32,735 nt of DNA from Nitrospira sp. CG24A (GTDB lineage: Bacteria; Nitrospirota; Nitrospiria; Nitrospirales; Nitrospiraceae): the NCBI GenBank assembly GCA_002869925.2, contig NEWT02000026.1, positions 1 through 32,735 on the forward strand. Reading direction: 5' to 3'. Within the stretch, counting starts at the first letter, position 1, and the number at the start of each line of letters is the position of its first letter. Position numbers and translations under genes: made by a program. Positions 2,375 to 12,181 of the stretch are shown piece by piece. The notes below the pieces were generated by a model, which was not told the origin of the DNA, made no database searches, and worked only from the letters and a program-made list of their open reading frames with translations.

Positions 2375-2403
2375 CTTGTGCGTGATTTGGTTGAGTGCAG
2401 GTC

Positions 2404-4335
2404 ATGAAAGTTACGCTCAAAGATGGCAGTAGCAGGGATGTTCAAGCGGGCCAGACTGTCGGCTCTGCCCTGTCGGCTCTCGGTCTGAAGCTTGGTTCAG
2501 ACATACTTGCGGCTAAAGTAAATGGTCACACCGTAGATCTCTCGAGCGTGTTAATGGAAGATGCTGAAGTGACTCCACTGAAATTCGACAGCGCTGAAGG
2601 CCGTGAGGTCTATCGTCATAGTAGTACGCACATTATGGCGCAGGCTGTCAAAGAGGTGTTTCCTACAGCACAGTTAACAATCGGTCCAGCCCTCGAAGAT
2701 GGGTTTTTCTATGACTTTGCCTTTGAGCGGCCATTTACTCCGGAAGATCTTGGGAAAATTGAGGCGCGAGCAAAGGACATCGTGAAGCGCTCCCTTCCCG
2801 TCACACGGGCAGAATTGTCGAAGCAGGATGCGGTGAAGTTGTTTCAGGAACGAGGGGAAGCGTACAAGGTTGAGTTAATCCAAGGACTCACCGATGGGCA
2901 GACGATCTCCGTCTATAGTCAGGGTGAGTTCACCGACCTTTGCCGCGGTCCCCACCTTCCTACAACAGGCCATGTCGGAGCATTCAAGCTGCTGAACACG
3001 GCAGGGGCCTATTGGCGAGGCGACGAACGTAATCCCATGCTGCAACGGATCTATGGGACATCTTTCCCGACCCAGGCGGAACTCGACGCGCATCTTGCAA
3101 GGCTGGAAGAAATTAAGCGACGAGATCACCGCAAGGTCGGCAAGGAACTTGACTTGATCTCGATCCAGGATGAAATTGGCCCTGGCCTTGTGCTCTGGCA
3201 TCCCAAAGGAGCAACCATTCGGCTATTAATCGAGAATTTTTGGCGTGATCAGCATATTCAGAACGGGTATGAACTGGTGTACTCCCCCCACGTCGCCCGG
3301 TTAGATCTCTGGAAAACCAGCGGCCATGTCGACTATTACCGCGACAACATGTTCGCGCCCATGAAGGTTGAAAATAGCGAGTACCAGCTCAAGCCGATGA
3401 ATTGCCCGTTCCACATCATGATCTATAAGTCGCATTTGCGCAGCTACAGGGATCTCCCCATCCGCTATGGCGAATTGGGCACGGTCTACCGGTATGAACG
3501 GACAGGCGTCCTCCACGGTTTGTTGCGGGTTCGCGGGTTCACGCAAGACGACGCGCATCTATTCTGCCGTCCGGATCAGATTGAAAATGAGGTCAGCCAG
3601 GTGCTCGACTTTACGTTCTTTGTCCTTGGCACCTTCGGGTTCACTGAATTTGAAGTGTATCTTTCGACCAAGCCTGAGAAGTCCGTCGGCTCGGAGGAGC
3701 GTTGGGCCCAAGCTACGAGTGCGCTCGAAGCGGCATTGAAGGGGCGAGGAGTCGCCTACCAGATCGATCCTGGCGAAGGTGTCTTCTACGGACCAAAAAT
3801 CGACATCAAAATCAAGGATGCGCTGGGGCGATCTTGGCAATGCTCAACGATTCAAGTGGATTTCAATAATCCTGAGCGGTTCGAATTAGGGTATATTGGA
3901 GAAGATGGCAAGGTGCATCAGCCGATCATGATCCATCGGGCACTGATGGGATCGATCGAACGATTTTTCGGCATTCTGATTGAGCATTTCGGCGGGGCTT
4001 TCCCGACATGGCTCGCCCCGGTTCAAGCGATGGTCATGTCGATCACGGACAATCAACGGCCCTATGTGGCGGAGGTTGTCGCTCAACTCAAGGCTGCAGG
4101 GTTTCGCGCCGAGGCGGACCTTCGGAATGAGAAAATTGGGCTCAAAATTCGAGAAGCGGAAAAAGCAAAGGTCCCATTCATGTTTGTGGTCGGCGACCGG
4201 GAAGTGCAGAGTGGAACGCTGGCCATACGAGGCCGGAGCGGAGCCAACCTTGGCAGCATGACCGTCGAGGGGGCGCTCGACCTGCTCCGTGCGGACCTTA
4301 AGCCGGTCGGGAAGCAACATTCACTAATTCAATAA
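2404..4335 (+). CDS. thrS: threonyl-tRNA synthetase
   Basis: This cytoplasmic class II synthetase charges tRNA-Thr. Order of domains in the 643-residue protein: N-terminal TGS domain (about 1-60), editing domain with HSSTH (72-76) and CRGPH (180-184) that removes mischarged Ser, catalytic core with motif 2 around YRYERTG and motif 3 GSIERFFG, then the C-terminal anticodon-binding domain. The three zinc ligands that select threonine are Cys334, His385 and His511, the same numbers as I recall for the E. coli enzyme when counting from the ATG at 2404. That favours this start over the in-frame GTG at 2395, as neither has a strong ribosome binding site. The gene is first in the conserved thrS-infC-rpmI-rplT order. 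Confidence 0.98.
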   Translation: MKVTLKDGSSRDVQAGQTVGSALSALGLKLGSDILAAKVNGHTVDLSSVLMEDAEVTPLKFDSAEGREVYRHSSTHIMAQAVKEVFPTAQLTIGPALEDGFFYDFAFERPFTPEDLGKIEARAKDIVKRSLPVTRAELSKQDAVKLFQERGEAYKVELIQGLTDGQTISVYSQGEFTDLCRGPHLPTTGHVGAFKLLNTAGAYWRGDERNPMLQRIYGTSFPTQAELDAHLARLEEIKRRDHRKVGKELDLISIQDEIGPGLVLWHPKGATIRLLIENFWRDQHIQNGYELVYSPHVARLDLWKTSGHVDYYRDNMFAPMKVENSEYQLKPMNCPFHIMIYKSHLRSYRDLPIRYGELGTVYRYERTGVLHGLLRVRGFTQDDAHLFCRPDQIENEVSQVLDFTFFVLGTFGFTEFEVYLSTKPEKSVGSEERWAQATSALEAALKGRGVAYQIDPGEGVFYGPKIDIKIKDALGRSWQCSTIQVDFNNPERFELGYIGEDGKVHQPIMIHRALMGSIERFFGILIEHFGGAFPTWLAPVQAMVMSITDNQRPYVAEVVAQLKAAGFRAEADLRNEKIGLKIREAEKAKVPFMFVVGDREVQSGTLAIRGRSGANLGSMTVEGALDLLRADLKPVGKQHSLIQ

Positions 4336-4348: not shown

Positions 4349-4852
4349 GTCCCCAAACTACGAGTGAACCGGGAAATCAGAGTGCGCGAAGTCCGGGTAA
4401 TTGGTCCGGAGAGTGAACAGCTTGGCATTCTCCTTACAGCGGATGCATTCAAACAGGCACAAGACAATGGCTACGACCTTGTTGAAGTCGCGCCCACCTC
4501 AGTGCCGCCCGTGTGTCGCATTATGGACTACGGGAAATACAAGTTTGAGCTGAGCAAAAAGGACCACCAGAACCGACGCCATCAAAAGTCGACACAGGTG
4601 AAGGAAATTAAGTTGCGCCCGCGGACCGATAAGCATGATTTGGAGATCAAGATTCGACAGATTAAGGGATTTCTCGCCGACGGGAACAAAACAAAAGTCC
4701 TCTTGACCTACCGCGGTCGAGAGATGGCGAATCAGGAGATGGGTCGCACTCTCATGAGTACGGTGATTGCAGAGCTGGGAGAGGTCGGCACCATCGAGTA
4801 CGCCCCTCGCATGGAAGGGCGGAGTTTGATCATGATCGTGGCGCCGAAGTAA
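4346..4852 (+). CDS. infC: translation initiation factor IF-3
   Basis: IF-3 binds the 30S subunit, prevents premature 50S joining and checks the initiator tRNA-start codon pair. The N-terminal domain begins IVPKLRVNREIRVREVRVIG, the linker is Lys/Arg-rich, and the C-terminal domain runs from about residue 85 to the end (EYAPRMEGRSLIMIVAP). The proposed start is the ATC at 4346, giving 168 residues. It is placed by the ribosome binding site and by the added LRVNREIR-type leader that IF-3 proteins usually have. The conventional alternative is GTG at 4364 (162 residues). E. coli infC is known to use AUU so that IF-3 represses its own translation; the same autoregulation is inferred here. It follows thrS by 10 bases. 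Confidence 0.96.
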   Translation: MVPKLRVNREIRVREVRVIGPESEQLGILLTADAFKQAQDNGYDLVEVAPTSVPPVCRIMDYGKYKFELSKKDHQNRRHQKSTQVKEIKLRPRTDKHDLEIKIRQIKGFLADGNKTKVLLTYRGREMANQEMGRTLMSTVIAELGEVGTIEYAPRMEGRSLIMIVAPK

Positions 4853-4892: not shown

Positions 4893-5096
4893 ATGAAGAA
4901 CAGAAAGATGAAAACCCATAGCGGGGCCAAAAAGCGCTTCACCCGCACTGGTTCTGGGAAATTGACCAGACGAAAAGCAGGGAAACGCCATATCCTCACC
5001 AGCAAGACGCAGGACCGGAAGCGCCGATTAAGCGGGACGGTGCTCGTGGATAAAACCAAGACTCAGGCGCTGGATCGCTTATTGCCCTACAAATAA
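4893..5096 (+). CDS. rpmI: 50S ribosomal protein L35
   Basis: This 67-residue, very basic protein carries the family signature MKTHSGAKKRF at residues 6-16 and ends in the LDRLLPY type of tail seen in L35. AAAGGAAG lies 7 bases before the ATG at 4893. Most L35 proteins begin two or three residues before the MKTHSGAKKR motif, so the start at 4893 (MKNRK) gives a slightly longer N-terminus; the internal ATG at 4908 is an alternative. It sits between infC and rplT as in most bacteria, and is part of the large ribosomal subunit. Confidence 0.97.
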   Translation: MKNRKMKTHSGAKKRFTRTGSGKLTRRKAGKRHILTSKTQDRKRRLSGTVLVDKTKTQALDRLLPYK

Positions 5097-5139: not shown

Positions 5140-5508
5140 ATGCCTCGCGCAAAAGGTGGTCCCAAAACACGACATCGGCGGAAGAAACGGCTGAAATTAG
5201 CCAAAGGACAGTATGGAGGGAAGAGCCGGCTGTTTCGCACCGCAACAGAATCGGTTGATAAGGGTCAGGCGTACGCCTATACAGGACGGAAAAATCGGAA
5301 ACGTGATTTCCGCGTGTTGTGGATTGCGCGCATCAACGCAGCAGTTCGGGCACATGGACTGACCTATGGCCGATTTATCAACGCCCTAAAGAAGGCCAAT
5401 ATTCTCTTGGATCGGAAGGTCTTGTCCGACATGGCAATCAAGGATGCCACGGGGTTTGAGCAGCTGGTCGGTCTTGCGAAGCAGCAGCTTGTCCCTGCCG
5501 GAGCATAA
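5140..5508 (+). CDS. rplT: 50S ribosomal protein L20
   Basis: This 122-residue protein shows the whole L20 pattern: basic N-terminal arm with [16 protein letters not shown], then [14 protein letters not shown] and the [13 protein letters not shown] helix, then [14 protein letters not shown] near the end. L20 binds 23S rRNA early in 50S assembly and in some bacteria represses its own operon; no leader structure was identified here. The start has AAAAGGAG (5123-5130) 9 bases upstream. This is the last plus-strand gene of the cluster and it converges on pheT. Confidence 0.98.
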
Positions 5509-5558: not shown

Positions 5559-5755
5559 TAGCAGGGTGCTCAAAAAGGCCGTCCAGCAGGCCTAGCGAGT
5601 GAAGAGCTGAGGCGTACTCTCTGAGGTGCGTTGAAGGTCTGAACGATGCGAGAACGACGCTTGGTGAAAAGCGCGTCTCGGACTTCGACGAGCTCGGTCG
5701 AGCCGCGCGCCGGGGTTGGGCGGGTGAGAAAAGCGACTTTTTCAGCGTCCTGCTA
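5559..5755. mobile_element. short non-coding element with terminal inverted repeats (MITE-like)
   Basis: The left end (5559-5580) starts TAGCAGGGTGCTCAAAAAGG. The right end read on the minus strand starts TAGCAGGACGCTGAAAAAGT. Seventeen of the first 22 positions match, including TAGCAGG, GCT and AAAAAG. The roughly 197-base unit has no convincing ORF. Its interior (about 5595-5665) contains phrases I associate from memory with a repeat found many times in Nitrospira genomes. It fills the space between the convergent rplT and pheT genes, and its right end contributes the last codons and stop of pheT. It may also terminate transcription from both sides. No transposase is nearby, so movement would need help in trans. 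Confidence 0.55.
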
Positions 5756-7457
5756 GTTCCGTCAGATCGATCTCGAACGCTACAGCCGGAACCGAAATCT
5801 GCCAACGTTCGAGAACTTCCGGGTGTAGCTCCCCGATCACACCGATCTGTTTCCCTTCAGAGACAATGCTCCCCACTCGTCCGGCGAGAAATGATGGATG
5901 TTGGATCGGTTCCAAGCTGTAGGTCTGATTCACATAATAAAACAACGTATCTAGGCAGGAGTGGGCCTCTGAAAAATGTGTATCGGCATGGGCAATCATC
6001 CCGCCGAGCACTGTCACCGTGCGCGATCCGACTGACTGCGTGGGATCAGGGCGCGCTACTTCGCCGGCCTCGAACACTCGATGAGGATAAAAAGCCCGGT
6101 TCGATGCCGCCTCCACACGCAGCAACGATGGAAGCATCCATTGTCGAAGCGCAGAGAAGTTCTGGGACATGACATTATCGACTTCGACCAGTTGCCCCCA
6201 CCCGGTCCCTTCCAATCGCATCGCATCGCGCAGGTCTTGGGGAGAACCGAGAATATTGGAAATAATCTCTTGAAAGCCCATCCCGACCATGAGCGTCCTC
6301 ACACGATCGGAGACCTCTTCGATGCGCGATAATCCTCCGACCGTAAATTGCGAAGGCATTTCGGGTAAAAAATCTCCATACCCACGGCTGATCGCGACAT
6401 CCTCGACTACGTCCATGGCATGCATGAGGTCTTGCCGGTAGAACGGAAGCGTCACCGTGATATGTTTGCCTTTCGTCGCCACGCCATACCCATAGGCCCG
6501 GAGGGCGTTCGCGACTTTCTGAGCTCCGAGTGCCTGCCCAAGGGCTTGTTCGATTGTGCTGATGGGAAGCTTCTGTGATTTCTCAAGATCTTGAGGAGTG
6601 ACGACCCCTGTGCCAAGCACAGTTTTATAGGGATACCGTATCTCTATGGGCTCAATCACCGCGCCTCGATCCGCGAGATTGGCGGAAAAAATATTGAGGG
6701 TCAGAACGACCATTGAGAGGTCGGTACCGGTCACCTCGACAAAGAGCGCATCGTCTCCCACCCGCACTTCTCCCGATTCGCGGCTGTTGATGATCGGTGG
6801 GAAGGAGAGCGCCTGATGCTTTGCATCGCGCAGGAAGGGCAGACGATCCTGTCCTGCGAGGATCCCGCCGAACTCCAGACCCTTGGGGTGGACAAGCAGC
6901 ATTTCTCCCAGCGTCATCACCGTATCCATCCCCAGCGGCGTGAACGACGCTTCGTCCGGCTTGACCAAATCGTAGGTAATAGGAAACTCGATTGCCGCGA
7001 GACGATAGAGTCCGATCGACACAGTCCGGCGTTTACGCCCGAACATCTCGGAGAGTTTCTCTTGCGTCTGGATCAGCTGTGCGAGGCCCTCCTGGGTCAC
7101 GAGGTAGCCAGTTGCAGCGCAAGCTGCCACGTAGGGTCTGACCTTCTCCAGGCCTGGAGCCACGTTCAGTCGTTTTGGCGATTTCAATTTGGTCGTGAGA
7201 AAATCGTATTTGGAGAGCGCGCCCTGTCGCTTTGCCCGAAACTGCCGGGCGATTCCTTCGCAGCACCAGAGATCGGGACGATTACTATCTTGTAACTCGA
7301 TGCGCAGTTCACCGGTGTCGGGATTCTGTCCCTTCAGTTCACCCTTCACGAGCATCAAAGATTCTTCAAGTTGTTCGATGGTGATCGGTTGGGGAGCTTC
7401 TCCGGGCCCGGCGAGTAATGTCTCGAGATCTTGCTTGAAAATAGTAATCGTCGGCAT
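5742..7457 (-). CDS. pheT: phenylalanyl-tRNA synthetase beta subunit, archaeal/eukaryotic type
   Basis: This is the beta subunit of the cytoplasmic alpha2-beta2 PheRS. At 571 residues it is far shorter than the roughly 800-residue bacterial PheT. It begins directly with MPTITIFKQDLETLL, so it lacks the N-terminal OB-fold tRNA-binding domain, and it ends soon after the catalytic-like core, so it lacks the C-terminal ferredoxin-fold anticodon-binding domain. A B3/B4 editing region lies at about 110-280. A B5 DNA-binding-like domain lies at about 285-365 and contains YRQDLMHAMDVVEDVAI. The core runs from about 375 on. It starts 7 bases after the pheS stop. The last residues, LAGR plus TGA, are encoded by the terminal repeat of the element at 5559-5755, so the native C-terminus may have been altered. 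Confidence 0.95.
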   Translation of the reverse strand: MPTITIFKQDLETLLAGPGEAPQPITIEQLEESLMLVKGELKGQNPDTGELRIELQDSNRPDLWCCEGIARQFRAKRQGALSKYDFLTTKLKSPKRLNVAPGLEKVRPYVAACAATGYLVTQEGLAQLIQTQEKLSEMFGRKRRTVSIGLYRLAAIEFPITYDLVKPDEASFTPLGMDTVMTLGEMLLVHPKGLEFGGILAGQDRLPFLRDAKHQALSFPPIINSRESGEVRVGDDALFVEVTGTDLSMVVLTLNIFSANLADRGAVIEPIEIRYPYKTVLGTGVVTPQDLEKSQKLPISTIEQALGQALGAQKVANALRAYGYGVATKGKHITVTLPFYRQDLMHAMDVVEDVAISRGYGDFLPEMPSQFTVGGLSRIEEVSDRVRTLMVGMGFQEIISNILGSPQDLRDAMRLEGTGWGQLVEVDNVMSQNFSALRQWMLPSLLRVEAASNRAFYPHRVFEAGEVARPDPTQSVGSRTVTVLGGMIAHADTHFSEAHSCLDTLFYYVNQTYSLEPIQHPSFLAGRVGSIVSEGKQIGVIGELHPEVLERWQISVPAVAFEIDLTELAGR

Positions 7458-7464
7458 GTGAAAC

Positions 7465-9027
7465 CTAAAAGGCTCCTCTTGTAGAGCGAATCAGATCAAG
7501 ATTATCGGTGAATAACTCCCGAATATCATGAATGCCGAGCGCTACCATCGCCATGCGATCGAGCCCCAACCCCCACGCAATGACGGGAACGGTTACGCCC
7601 AGCGGAATGGTAACTTCAGGCCGGAACAATCCGGCTCCGCCAAGTTCCATCCATCCAAGCTTTGGATGGCGCACGTGCAGTTCGACCGAGGGTTCGGTGA
7701 AGGGGAAATAGGCGGGTAGGAATTTGACTTCCTTGGCGTGCGCGACTTCACGGGCAAAGAGATTGAGCAGGCCGAGCAACGTGCGAAAGTTGATATCTTC
7801 GCCGAGCACGATCCCTTCGACCTGAAAGAAGTCGGTTGCATGCGTCGCATCGACTTGATCGTAGCGAAAACAGCGGGCGATGGAAAAGTATTTTCCCGGT
7901 ACGGCTGGTTGAGCGGCCAGTGTATGGGCAGAGACGGCTGTCCCTTGGCTTCGTAAGACCAGCCGTCGCGCGCGTTCCACATCGAAGGGGTAGCTCCAGC
8001 CGGTTGAGCCGGTTTCACCGCCATGTTGGTGGGCTTGTGCCACCTGTGACAAGAAGGGTTCCGCAATCGACGAGGCATGAGTCGGTTCCTTGACGAAGTA
8101 GACGTCATGAATATCCCGTGCAGGGTGGAACTGCGGCATGAAGAGGGCGTCCATGTTCCAGAATTCTGTCTCGACGAGCGAGCCACGCATTTCCTGGAAT
8201 CCCATGCTCACAAGTTGTGTTTTCACCGCATCGAGAAATTCTCGATAGGGATGCCGTTTACCCGGTGCGATTCTTGGCGCGCGGAGGCTGATCGTGTATT
8301 TACGGAAGCGCTTTGCCCGCCAGCTCCCATCTTTCAATAGATCGGGCGTCAGTTGGGAGACCTCTTCTGCGGTTCCTTGCCGAGAGAGCTGCTGGGCTGC
8401 TTCAACTCCGGCCTCGGAAAGTTTGAGGGCTCTGGTCACTCGATCATCAATGCGGAACGGTTCCCGCGCATTTCCGCGCTTGACGGCGTGATCGTGAATG
8501 ACTTGCCGTTGTGTCTCGGGAAACGCTCGAAGCTCACGAGGCGCTCCATGGAGCTGTTGCAGCAAGCCCCTCATCGCCTCCGCCGTCGGGCTCGGTCGAC
8601 TGGTCGATTCGATACAGCCGCCTTGAATGATGAGAAGCGCCCCCTCTTTCTTGAGACGCCCGATCGCGCCGCTTACCTCCGACGGTTCGAGTCCCTCCCG
8701 TGATTGAATGTCCTGAATGGTGAGGCGCATACCAGTTTTAGCCGCGTCGCGAGCGACTGACAGGACTCGTTCAATCGGCGAATATTTTTCAAAGTAGAGC
8801 TCACCTGTTTTGGTGAGCGAAACGATCGGCGTCGTGGTTTCTGTATCGACCACAAGCAGCGACTTGGCGAGCAACCATTCAACAGCCATGCTGAGCTGAG
8901 AAGGCTCTAGTCCGGTGGACTGCGTAAGTTGTTCCGTGTGAAGGATTGCGGAAGGACTTGCTCCGAAGGTCGATAGGACTTTGATTTCGAGAGGATGAAG
9001 GCTTTCGATGAGAGAAGAAATATCCAC
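7465..9027 (-). CDS. pheS: phenylalanyl-tRNA synthetase alpha subunit, archaeal/eukaryotic type
   Basis: This is the catalytic alpha subunit of PheRS: it activates Phe and transfers it to tRNA-Phe. Its 520 residues contrast with about 330-350 in bacterial PheS. The N-terminal 230 or so residues are winged-helix modules (LHPLEIKVLSTFG; EYF-type turns), as in archaeal and eukaryotic enzymes, instead of the bacterial coiled coil. The class II core has PQFHPARDIHD, then motif 2 around SIARCFRYDQVDATH, and motif 3 with AWGLGLDRMAM. It begins at GTG 9027, 9 bases after the rpe stop, with no strong ribosome binding site, so translational coupling is likely. The pair pheS-pheT is complete and looks functional. 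Confidence 0.96.
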   Translation of the reverse strand: MDISSLIESLHPLEIKVLSTFGASPSAILHTEQLTQSTGLEPSQLSMAVEWLLAKSLLVVDTETTTPIVSLTKTGELYFEKYSPIERVLSVARDAAKTGMRLTIQDIQSREGLEPSEVSGAIGRLKKEGALLIIQGGCIESTSRPSPTAEAMRGLLQQLHGAPRELRAFPETQRQVIHDHAVKRGNAREPFRIDDRVTRALKLSEAGVEAAQQLSRQGTAEEVSQLTPDLLKDGSWRAKRFRKYTISLRAPRIAPGKRHPYREFLDAVKTQLVSMGFQEMRGSLVETEFWNMDALFMPQFHPARDIHDVYFVKEPTHASSIAEPFLSQVAQAHQHGGETGSTGWSYPFDVERARRLVLRSQGTAVSAHTLAAQPAVPGKYFSIARCFRYDQVDATHATDFFQVEGIVLGEDINFRTLLGLLNLFAREVAHAKEVKFLPAYFPFTEPSVELHVRHPKLGWMELGGAGLFRPEVTIPLGVTVPVIAWGLGLDRMAMVALGIHDIRELFTDNLDLIRSTRGAF

Positions 9028-9036
9028 CCGCGAGGC

Positions 9037-9738
9037 CTATCGGTGAGCGGAGACGCGCCGTGGCGTCTTGGAAGAAGGTTGGCCGGCTGCCCGCATCGCA
9101 GCAATCGTCGCGGCATAGTCCCGATTTGAGAAAATAGCCGACCCGGCGACTAACACATCGGCTCCTGCCGCCAGCACCTGTGCCGCATTGTCAATCTTGA
9201 CCCCGCCGTCCACTTCAAGCAATGCGCGACTTCCAGTCCGATCAATCATGGCGCGAGCCGAGGCCGTCTTCTGCAGGCAGGACGCGATAAACGTTTGACC
9301 ACCGAAACCGGGATTGACTGACATAATGAGAACCAAATCGACATCGGGAAGAATTTCCTCGATCGTATTGAGCGAGGTGGCTGGATTTAGAGTCACTCCG
9401 GCCTTGACCCCGCGCTCCTTGATCGATTGCACTGTGCGATGGAGATGCGGACAGGCCTCGACGTGCACCGTGAGGTAATCCGCGCCAGCCTCGGCGAACT
9501 CGGCGATAAAGGCGTCGGCATTGGTGATCATGAGGTGGACGTCAAGCGGGAGTTTCGTGACTTTTCTGAGCGCTGCCACGATCGGTGGGCCAATGGTCAA
9601 ATTCGGGACGAAGTGTCCGTCCATAACATCGATGTGCAGAAAGTCGGCCCCTGCACGCTCCACAGCTGCTACTTCCTCCGCCAGTCTGGCAAAGTCAGCA
9701 GATAAGATTGAGGGGGCAATAAGAACGGGGCGTGACAT
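9037..9738 (-). CDS. rpe: ribulose-phosphate 3-epimerase
   Basis: This 233-residue TIM-barrel enzyme interconverts ribulose 5-phosphate and xylulose 5-phosphate in the pentose phosphate pathway. Visible signatures are IAPSILSADFARL at the N-terminus, HIDVMDGHFVPNLTIGP with the metal-binding His and Asp, DVHLMI, MSVNPGFGGQ and EVDGGV. The start is ATG at 9738. It forms a TGATG overlap with the rsmB stop, and AAGGAAGGTG lies 5 bases upstream; a GTG one codon earlier is less likely. The C-terminal tail after RAAGQPSS is short and basic, beyond the usual end of the barrel. The gene is coupled to rsmB and pheS. Confidence 0.97.
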   Translation of the reverse strand: MSRPVLIAPSILSADFARLAEEVAAVERAGADFLHIDVMDGHFVPNLTIGPPIVAALRKVTKLPLDVHLMITNADAFIAEFAEAGADYLTVHVEACPHLHRTVQSIKERGVKAGVTLNPATSLNTIEEILPDVDLVLIMSVNPGFGGQTFIASCLQKTASARAMIDRTGSRALLEVDGGVKIDNAAQVLAAGADVLVAGSAIFSNRDYAATIAAMRAAGQPSSKTPRRVSAHR

Positions 9739-11180
9739 CACAACACCTTCCTTAGTCGTGCGGCGTAAAACCCATCCATCGAGAACTGGTTGCCTACTGT
9801 CGAGAGGGCGCCTTGCTCAGTGACGAATCCCTGCGCGACAGGCGGGAGCCAGGAGACCACGGATTCACGTCGGAATTCCGCATGAGCACGACAGAATCGT
9901 TCGATGACGTCTTCGTTTTCTTCCGGTTCGGTGGAGCACGTACTATAGACTAGCACCCCGCCGGGTCGCAAGCATGAGGCAATGCTTTCGAGAATCTGAC
10001 ACTGGAGCGCCTGATGTCGAGGGAGGGCCTGCGCGTCTTTCCGCCATTTCGCTTCCGGATGTCGCCGTAACACACCAAGCCCGCTACAGGGCGCGTCTAC
10101 CAAAATTCGATCAATAGAAGGTTCGCCCATTCTGGCCTGTTTCACGGAAGGCGGTCTCGTTGCCGTAGCAAGGGGAACCCACACACGCGGCTGTCGGATA
10201 TCGCCGACGATTGGTTCGACAATTCGGACTCCAAGCCGACGACAATTACTTCGTACTAGATCCAGACGAGCCTCTTTTCGATCGACAGCGTAGATGATCC
10301 CCTTGTTCTGCATCAGAGCGGCCACATGGGTTGATTTCCCTCCCGGTGCCGCGCAGGTATCGAGCACGATGTCGCCAGGCTGAGGGTCGAGCAGAAGAGG
10401 AATGAGTTGCGCGGCTTCATCTTCGACATAAAAGGCGCCCTCATCAAACCCGGGAAGCGAAGGCACAGGTCCTCCTTCTTGGAGCTGAACGCCAAATGGG
10501 CTTACGCAGGTCGGCGTGGCTGCAATGCCGGCCTGAGCGAATGTGTCGAGTAGCGACGCCCTGGTCGTGACGAGCTGGTTTACCCGAAGCGTGAGCGGAG
10601 GCGTGACGCTGACCCCCTCGCAGGCACGTTCCGCGGAAGCCAGCCCCAGTCGTTCCACCCATCGACGACTGAGCCAGTCTGGAACCGAGTACCGAACGGC
10701 AAGAGTGCGTGCGGCGTCGAGGTTCATATCGGGCCAGGGCTGAGGCGGGTGGCGCAAGAACGCGCGTAACACCGCATTGACGAACCCACTCCAGTCTCTG
10801 CCGACTGTGCCGGTAAAGGCTTTGGCCAGATTGACAGATTCGTTGACTGCGGCAGACTGCGGAATACGATCCAGAAATAGCACTTGGTACGCTCCAAGCC
10901 TGAGCACCATTTGCACAGCGACAGGAAGGCGAGGCAGTGGCTTGTCTAGCACCGGCTCCAGCCGCCAATCGATGGTCGCACGGCGCCGTAAGACCCCATA
11001 GGTGAGTTCCACCGCGAGTGACCGATCCCTGCTGTCGAAGGGGCATTGTGCGAGGGCGCGTTCCAATAAGGTATCGACCCCCTCCTCGCTCGCGTCAGAT
11101 TCCACCAACAAGTAAAGGGCGGTTGCACGGGCTGACGGTGCAGTTTGGGCAGTGAACAAGGACCGAGAGCTATGAGCCAT
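9738..11180 (-). CDS. rsmB: 16S rRNA (cytosine-967-C5)-methyltransferase RsmB
   Basis: RsmB methylates C967 of 16S rRNA using SAM. The 480-residue protein has an N-terminal NusB-like RNA-binding domain (about 15-150) and a C-terminal Rossmann methyltransferase domain. The SAM motif is VLDTCAAPGGKSTHVA. The motif IV proline-cysteine is in DAPCSGLGVLRRHPE and the catalytic cysteine of motif VI in VYSTCSTEPEENED. Length and motif order fit the family. The assigned ATG at 11180 lacks a clear ribosome binding site. The gene follows fmt by 50 bases, the common fmt-rsmB order, and its stop overlaps the rpe start. Confidence 0.96.
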   Translation of the reverse strand: MAHSSRSLFTAQTAPSARATALYLLVESDASEEGVDTLLERALAQCPFDSRDRSLAVELTYGVLRRRATIDWRLEPVLDKPLPRLPVAVQMVLRLGAYQVLFLDRIPQSAAVNESVNLAKAFTGTVGRDWSGFVNAVLRAFLRHPPQPWPDMNLDAARTLAVRYSVPDWLSRRWVERLGLASAERACEGVSVTPPLTLRVNQLVTTRASLLDTFAQAGIAATPTCVSPFGVQLQEGGPVPSLPGFDEGAFYVEDEAAQLIPLLLDPQPGDIVLDTCAAPGGKSTHVAALMQNKGIIYAVDRKEARLDLVRSNCRRLGVRIVEPIVGDIRQPRVWVPLATATRPPSVKQARMGEPSIDRILVDAPCSGLGVLRRHPEAKWRKDAQALPRHQALQCQILESIASCLRPGGVLVYSTCSTEPEENEDVIERFCRAHAEFRRESVVSWLPPVAQGFVTEQGALSTVGNQFSMDGFYAARLRKVL

Positions 11181-11230: not shown

Positions 11231-12181
11231 TCAGGAAAGAGCCGGCTCTCTCCCCAACTGCAATCCAACAGCAACAGGGTGGCCTGTCAAGTATTGTGCG
11301 ACGGCCATGCGACGGCTATTCGCCGGTTGCAACTCCGTCACGGCAAGCACTCCATCTCCGGTCATAACATGAATAGCGTCAGTGGTGACTGCGACGACTG
11401 TTCCTGGGGGTTGCGTCACGTGGCCTGGAAGTGCCGAGGCTTGCCAGATCGCCCAACGGTCACCTCCCGCCACGGTCGTGTGTGCCCCTGGCCAGGGAGA
11501 GAGGCCACGGACCCTATTGGCCAGAACCATGGCGGGCAAGGCCCAATCGATCGCCCCATCTTCTTTTGTCAACAATGGCGCCAAGGTCGCGCGTGAAGCA
11601 TCTTGCGGTTGCGGTACGAGGGTGCCGGCTTTGAGTCGGACAATCGTCTCGACCAACAGTTTGCCTCCGAGCTCGGCTAAGCGTGGCGAAAGAGTGCCGG
11701 CGGTATCATCCGGCATGATAGGTATGGCCTCCTGGAGCAACATGGCGCCGGTATCCATTCCCACATCCATCAGCATCGTTGTAATTCCTGTTTCTTTCTC
11801 GCCATTCATGATGGCCCACTGAATCGGACCAGCCCCGCGATATTTTGGAAGAAGGGAACCATGCACATTGATACAGCCGCGCGGTGGAAGCGAGAGGATC
11901 GCCGAAGGCAAAATACGCCCGAAGGCTGAGACCACAATCAGGTCCGGTTTCCATTCTGCCAGAGCATGGAGAAATTCAGGATCTTTCATCTTGAGCGGTT
12001 GCAGCAGAGGAGTCTGTGCTCGTTGAGCCAAAAGTTTCACCGGCGATGGCGTCAGAGTGTGGCCTCGCCCTTTCGGGCGATCCGGTTGAGTGACGATGCC
12101 GACAACAGAATCGTCAGAGCGCAACAAGGCCTCCAGCGATGCCGATGCAAAACTTGGTGTACCCATGAAAACGAGACGCAT
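11231..12181 (-). CDS. fmt: methionyl-tRNA formyltransferase
   Basis: Fmt transfers a formyl group from 10-formyl-THF to the charged initiator tRNA. The 316-residue protein has the N-terminal Rossmann-like catalytic domain. The catalytic triad is Asn105, His107 and Asp143, in NVHGSLLPKYRGAGPIQWAI and GMDTG; these positions are one less than the E. coli residues. The smaller C-terminal beta-barrel domain binds tRNA. The basic loop TQPDRPKGRG follows the first strands as usual. It is the first gene of the minus-strand fmt-rsmB-rpe-pheS-pheT series. In many bacteria def lies upstream of fmt; here that position is taken by the divergent initiator tRNA gene. Confidence 0.97.
   Translation of the reverse strand: MRLVFMGTPSFASASLEALLRSDDSVVGIVTQPDRPKGRGHTLTPSPVKLLAQRAQTPLLQPLKMKDPEFLHALAEWKPDLIVVSAFGRILPSAILSLPPRGCINVHGSLLPKYRGAGPIQWAIMNGEKETGITTMLMDVGMDTGAMLLQEAIPIMPDDTAGTLSPRLAELGGKLLVETIVRLKAGTLVPQPQDASRATLAPLLTKEDGAIDWALPAMVLANRVRGLSPWPGAHTTVAGGDRWAIWQASALPGHVTQPPGTVVAVTTDAIHVMTGDGVLAVTELQPANSRRMAVAQYLTGHPVAVGLQLGREPALS

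Follow-up and report, generated by a model that had tools for sequence, protein, structure and literature searches.

Gene organization at the pheT-pheS locus

The window, i.e., the whole 32,735-nucleotide stretch of Nitrospira sp. CG24A DNA that was analyzed, carries the genes for both subunits of phenylalanyl-tRNA synthetase (PheRS) on the minus strand. The gene pheT (positions 5742 to 7457) encodes a beta subunit of the archaeal/eukaryotic type, assigned from a 571-residue open reading frame, profile and Pfam searches, and a structural model. The gene pheS (7465 to 9027) starts with GTG and encodes a 520-residue alpha subunit of the same type, assigned from profiles and a model. Directly upstream of pheS lies rpe (9037 to 9741; ribulose-phosphate 3-epimerase), which is overlapped by rsmB (9738 to 11180; 16S rRNA m5C967 methyltransferase) and followed farther upstream by fmt (11231 to 12181; methionyl-tRNA formyltransferase), all on the minus strand. 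With spacings of 9 bp between rpe and pheS and 7 bp between pheS and pheT, fmt-rsmB-rpe-pheS-pheT probably forms one transcription unit in which fmt is the first gene. The plus strand holds a retained bacterial block that begins with thrS (2395 to 4335) and continues with infC (4364 to 4852), rpmI (4893 to 5096; 67 residues), and rplT (5140 to 5508). The open reading frame list agreed with the coordinates, strands, and lengths that a preliminary description of this DNA had given for pheT and pheS; that description had also called the thrS-infC-rpmI-rplT block intact and the inverted pheS and pheT genes coupled to rpe, and both statements hold for the arrangement described here.

The rplT and pheT genes are convergent and are separated by 233 bp. 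This gap is partly filled by a copy of about 100 bp (5561 to 5661, given without a strand) of a dispersed repeat, which is possibly a REP-like element. The repeat is present in high copy number throughout the genome, with 39 more scored matches at 79 to 90% identity and 211 first-look candidates. A tRNA-Val (GAC) gene is located at positions 2247 to 2321, just upstream of thrS, and a tRNA gene with the same anticodon lies near the thrS block on the same contig in several other Nitrospirota genomes (e.g., G018, G055, and G021).

Profiles and predicted folds of the two subunits

To the TIGR00471 (pheT_arch) profile, PheT matched with 451.6 bits (cutoff, 282.65) over model positions 1 to 549 of 551, and its score of 115.7 bits against TIGR00472 (pheT_bact) was below the cutoff of 402.65. 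Likewise, PheS matched NF003210 from end to end with 568.6 bits (cutoff, 350). Bacterial PheRS is recognized by a short PheS together with a long PheT that exceeds the TIGR00472 cutoff, a combination that the window pair does not show. In PheT, Pfam detected B5 and the C-terminal catalytic-like module (synthFbeta) alone; the tRNA_bind (OB, B2) and FDX-ACB (ferredoxin-fold anticodon) domains were absent from this search, and the predicted structure ends after the catalytic-like module. The modules of PheT are B1, the B3/B4 editing module, B5, and the catalytic-like module, so that the subunit retains the B1-B3/B4 editing half, a point that the preliminary description did not contain.

AlphaFold models of the two subunits were obtained with pLDDT values of 85.8 and 89.7 and with pTM values of 0.52 and 0.64, at which the relative placing of the domains is unreliable in both. 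The PheS model contains three winged-helix-like units of helix-helix-helix-strand (residues of approximately 12 to 71, 84 to 141, and 147 to 203), followed by the class II catalytic domain. Its top match in the PDB was the alpha subunit of human cytosolic PheRS (3l4g_C), aligned over its full length in 519 columns, and the top matches of the PheT model were the beta subunits of 8s8b and human 3l4g. Residues 1 to 360 of PheT superimposed on the Pyrococcus horikoshii fragment 2cxi with a TM score of 0.95 and a root mean square deviation of 1.7 Å. Both the curated models and the fold confirm that the window pair is a PheRS of the archaeal/eukaryotic type. The architecture that had been read from the letters, with N-terminal winged helices in PheS and a PheT devoid of OB and ferredoxin-fold domains, was thus borne out in each of its parts.

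A single PheRS in the genome

The genome that was searched comprises 3.36 Mb and is 95% complete. A TIGR00468 search of the whole genome returned a single PheS, which is the product of the window pheS, and a profile search of the same 3.36-Mb, 95%-complete genome found no bacterial PheT above the TIGR00472 cutoff. The one other match to pheT_bact (32 bits, contig C10) was rejected, as it corresponds to an OB domain in a protein that resembles methionyl-tRNA synthetase and has a KMSKS motif. Hence, the presumption that the pair stands in place of the bacterial enzyme agrees with the lack of any bacterial-type pheST elsewhere in this genome at its 95% completeness. Plasmids (with PheT as the query) and phages (with PheS as the query) were also searched for genes of the archaeal type, and all matches were partial and resembled the bacterial enzyme.

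Distribution of PheRS types and synteny in the Nitrospirota

Among 296 Nitrospirota genomes, 165 passed the pheT_arch cutoff and 119 passed the pheT_bact cutoff, the remainder having fragments or no match, and no family in this survey holds both types. The archaeal type was found in all families of the class Nitrospiria (f1 to f11) and in families f12, f13, f16, f19, f20, and f37; every other family is of the bacterial type. The window genome belongs to the nitrifier family Nitrospiraceae of the class Nitrospiria, and the swap is not specific to this genome but very old, with an age no less than that of the class. In most Thermodesulfovibrio-like families, the bacterial-type PheT is about 690 residues long (L098 to L115, e.g., L105:8635-10707) and begins near TIGR00472 position 157, without the N-terminal OB (B2) domain, which is retained in f14, f17, and genome G154. 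Loss of B2 from PheT has been reported for CPR bacteria (PMC5370408).

The order thrS-infC-rplT-pheS-pheT, with all genes in one direction, occurs in bacterial-type families that include f15, f21, f28, f30, f31, and f32. In the lineage of the window and in most archaeal-type families, thrS-infC-rplT is followed by a convergent pheT-pheS pair and usually then by rpe-rsmB-fmt, with rpe directly upstream of pheS in most of these families. Departures from this arrangement were seen in f12, where the archaeal pair accompanies rpe-rsmB-fmt away from rplT; in f16, where it adjoins neither the rplT block nor rpe-rsmB-fmt; and in f37, where archaeal pheS and pheT lie codirectionally right behind rplT, in the old bacterial slot. 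Since bacterial-type relatives keep pheS-pheT behind rplT, the synteny supports the conclusion that the archaeal pair replaced bacterial pheST at this site. An exact codirectional swap is seen in f37. The window pair is inverted and belongs to another operon; therefore, its lineage shows a replacement at this site that was not an exact swap. The earlier proposal of in-place replacement by gene transfer is supported by this synteny and by the trees described below, but not as an exact exchange in the window's lineage or as an event of this genome's own.

Phylogeny of PheT, PheS, and RpoB

In a careful IQ-TREE analysis of 71 PheT sequences, the Nitrospirota, Spirochaetaceae, Fermentibacterota, and four Planctomycetota sequences fell on one side of a branch supported at 100/100, apart from all archaea; the other side held the Thermococcales and then the other archaea together with a second bacterial group. 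A quick analysis of 89 PheS sequences, rooted on bacterial PheS, recovered the same clade at 100 and joined it at 99 to the Thermococcales plus one Bathyarchaeon. The Thermococcales are the nearest well-sampled archaea, their order relative to the Bathyarchaeon being left undecided by the PheS tree, and in both trees the Nitrospirota/spirochaete group forms its own clade outside them. Both window subunits group with the Spirochaetaceae, next to the Thermococcales, the placement that characterizes the spirochaete-type clade. The trees place both beside archaeal sequences and away from bacterial PheRS, the outcome that the preliminary description had named as support for replacement.

The second archaeal-type bacterial group (100/100 in PheT and 99 in PheS) was placed among other archaea and consists of eight Planctomycetota, one Myxococcota, one WOR-3, and one spirochaete genome, the last in the PheT tree. 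Its loci (L138, L121, L272, L288, L289, and L291 to L296) are not sister to the Nitrospirota/spirochaete clade, and a constraint of all archaeal-type bacteria to one clade was rejected (p-AU = 0.0006). This group is a second bacterial acquisition of archaeal-type PheRS, separate from the Nitrospirota/spirochaete one. A cyanobacterial metagenome-assembled genome, Tildeniella torsiva (G302; L126, L255, and L263), also has a pheS and a pheT of the archaeal type, both with long branches, its archaeal-type pheT lying beside micrarchaeal ones and a bacterial-like pheT lying on another contig; the archaeal-type genes are either an extra copy or contamination.

In the RpoB tree, sampled members of f1, f2, f4 to f9, f12, f13, f19, and f20, all of the archaeal type, formed one clade (100/97), f37 was placed with bacterial-type families (94/95), and f16 was placed with bacterial-type f14 and f17 (92/93). 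Families f16 and f37 were sisters in the PheT (100/99) and PheS (99) trees and not in RpoB, and PheRS type changed label three times on the RpoB tree. Monophyly of the Nitrospirota in PheT was not rejected (p-AU = 0.40); f20 was unstable in that tree and was placed with Planctomycetota sequences. The conflict between PheRS and RpoB for f16 and f37, along with the instability of f20, weighs against asserting a single gain in the Nitrospirota. In the Leptospirillum-like family f20, the RpoB reading frame (L364 and L365) is approximately 1,724 to 1,730 residues long, with insertions, and far exceeds that of its relatives.

tRNA-Phe genes under the two PheRS types

The tRNA-Phe of the window genome and of 14 other genomes was of the ordinary bacterial form. 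The full 76-base tRNA-Phe gene of two f16 genomes with archaeal PheRS (G005 and G015) was identical to that of an f14 genome with bacterial PheRS (G003), and the RpoB tree places these two families close together. This identity across PheRS types indicates that the exchange needed no change in the tRNA gene. It is likely that a structurally different PheRS replaced the bacterial one with the tRNA-Phe gene unaltered, the two designs being functionally interchangeable on the same bacterial tRNA, and, as part of the same reading, that the replacing enzyme recognizes tRNA-Phe without the bacterial anticodon domain, in one lineage from the same operon slot.

Origin of the archaeal-type PheRS

The architecture of the pair, the lack of a bacterial copy, the phylogeny, the class-wide distribution, the synteny, and the identical tRNA-Phe genes are best explained if the pair is the only PheRS of this bacterium, of archaeal type and archaeal derivation, and if the bacterial pheST behind rplT was lost; we hold this to be very probably correct. 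Contamination of the assembly by archaeal DNA has nothing beyond the archaeal affinity of the genes in its favor. It was ruled out, with a probability close to nil, by relatives in which the same pair adjoins rplT or rpe, among them the single-contig genomes G055, G110, G149, and G251. It is also highly unlikely that bacteria had the archaeal form ancestrally and that the bacterial form replaced it elsewhere. The survey found the archaeal form in at least six bacterial phyla, which would fit such a history; however, the archaeal-type bacteria occupy two separate places among the archaea, a single clade being rejected by the constraint reported above, and are nested inside the archaea in the rooted PheS tree, and bacterial-type relatives show the common bacterial operon order.

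We consider it somewhat more probable than a bare even chance that the Nitrospirota acquired the pair several times, with one gain by the main clade and later transfers from another Nitrospirota lineage to f16 and to f37, where the pair was exchanged exactly within the thrS-infC-rpmI-rplT-pheS-pheT operon. The sisterhood of f16 and f37 in both PheRS trees and their separation in RpoB favor this reading, as does the codirectional archaeal pair immediately behind rplT in f37. Against it, the RpoB placements of these two families are just below the starred support level and come from one gene, and loss or reversion could yield the same pattern. Several acquisitions would refine rather than contradict archaeal derivation with loss of the bacterial genes. 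The simplest history, as read from the one marker gene RpoB, is a single gain by the main clade, with secondary transfer to f16 and f37.

As a working model based on homology, PheS and PheT would form an alpha2beta2 enzyme. From their motifs and folds, PheS would form Phe-AMP in the class II site and charge tRNA-Phe, and the B3/B4 site of PheT would edit mischarged Tyr-tRNA-Phe. The winged helices of PheS probably hold tRNA-Phe in place of the missing PheT anticodon domain. Charging, editing, and winged-helix tRNA contacts are established for relatives of this enzyme, and in bacterial PheRS the corresponding tRNA contacts belong to PheT domains. Both genes probably came into bacteria together, from archaea related to the Thermococcales, and spread among ancestors of the Nitrospirota, the Spirochaetaceae, the Fermentibacterota, and part of the Planctomycetota. 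The pair would have taken over in the common ancestor of the Nitrospiria and the families most closely related to this class, with presumed loss of the bacterial pheST genes behind rplT.

Relation to known systems and significance

For Borrelia, Treponema, and Spirochaeta, an archaeal PheRS has already been published (Andam and Gogarten 2011, PMC3191353), with alpha subunits of 513 to 528 residues and beta subunits of 514 to 573 residues, transfer of both subunits together, and the Thermococcales as the nearest archaea; Nitrospira and Leptospirillum are unmentioned in that paper. The Nitrospirota PheRS is akin to this case, and spirochaete-type enzymes are its nearest relatives: architecture, subunit lengths, and tree clade are the same, whereas the host phylum differs and the window pair is found at the rplT site, together with rpe-rsmB-fmt. 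Thermococcales PheRS (TIGR00471/NF003210; P. horikoshii 2cxi) shares the full-length profile match and the domains, with 34% identity between window PheT and the 2cxi fragment, but the window's bacterial group forms a separate clade that is not nested in the Thermococcales. Eukaryotic cytosolic PheRS (human 3l4g; 8s8b) gave the best structural matches of both subunits, although identity over the structural alignments was only about 23 to 28%. In contrast, the bacterial PheRS encoded in the order rplT-pheS-pheT (Thermodesulfovibrio-like Nitrospirota and Escherichia coli) shares genome site and function and differs in its PheS of about 340 residues, its PheT of 690 to 800 residues, and its profile family. 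Such genes would already receive their names from profile-based annotation of databases; our literature search, largely of papers outside subscription, found no published report of an archaeal-origin PheRS in Nitrospira, Leptospirillum, or the Planctomycetes/Nitrospirota.

These results widen a textbook case in which a core translation enzyme crossed between domains, taking it beyond the spirochaetes to the Nitrospirota, the Fermentibacterota, and part of the Planctomycetota, and they show that other bacteria made a second, independent acquisition. The letter-identical tRNA-Phe genes served by differing PheRS designs offer a direct test of the limits that tRNA identity sets on synthetase exchange. 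If the two designs are indeed interchangeable, the Nitrospirota are a natural experiment in synthetase exchange. PheRS type is also a rare genomic character by which whole Nitrospirota families can be told apart.
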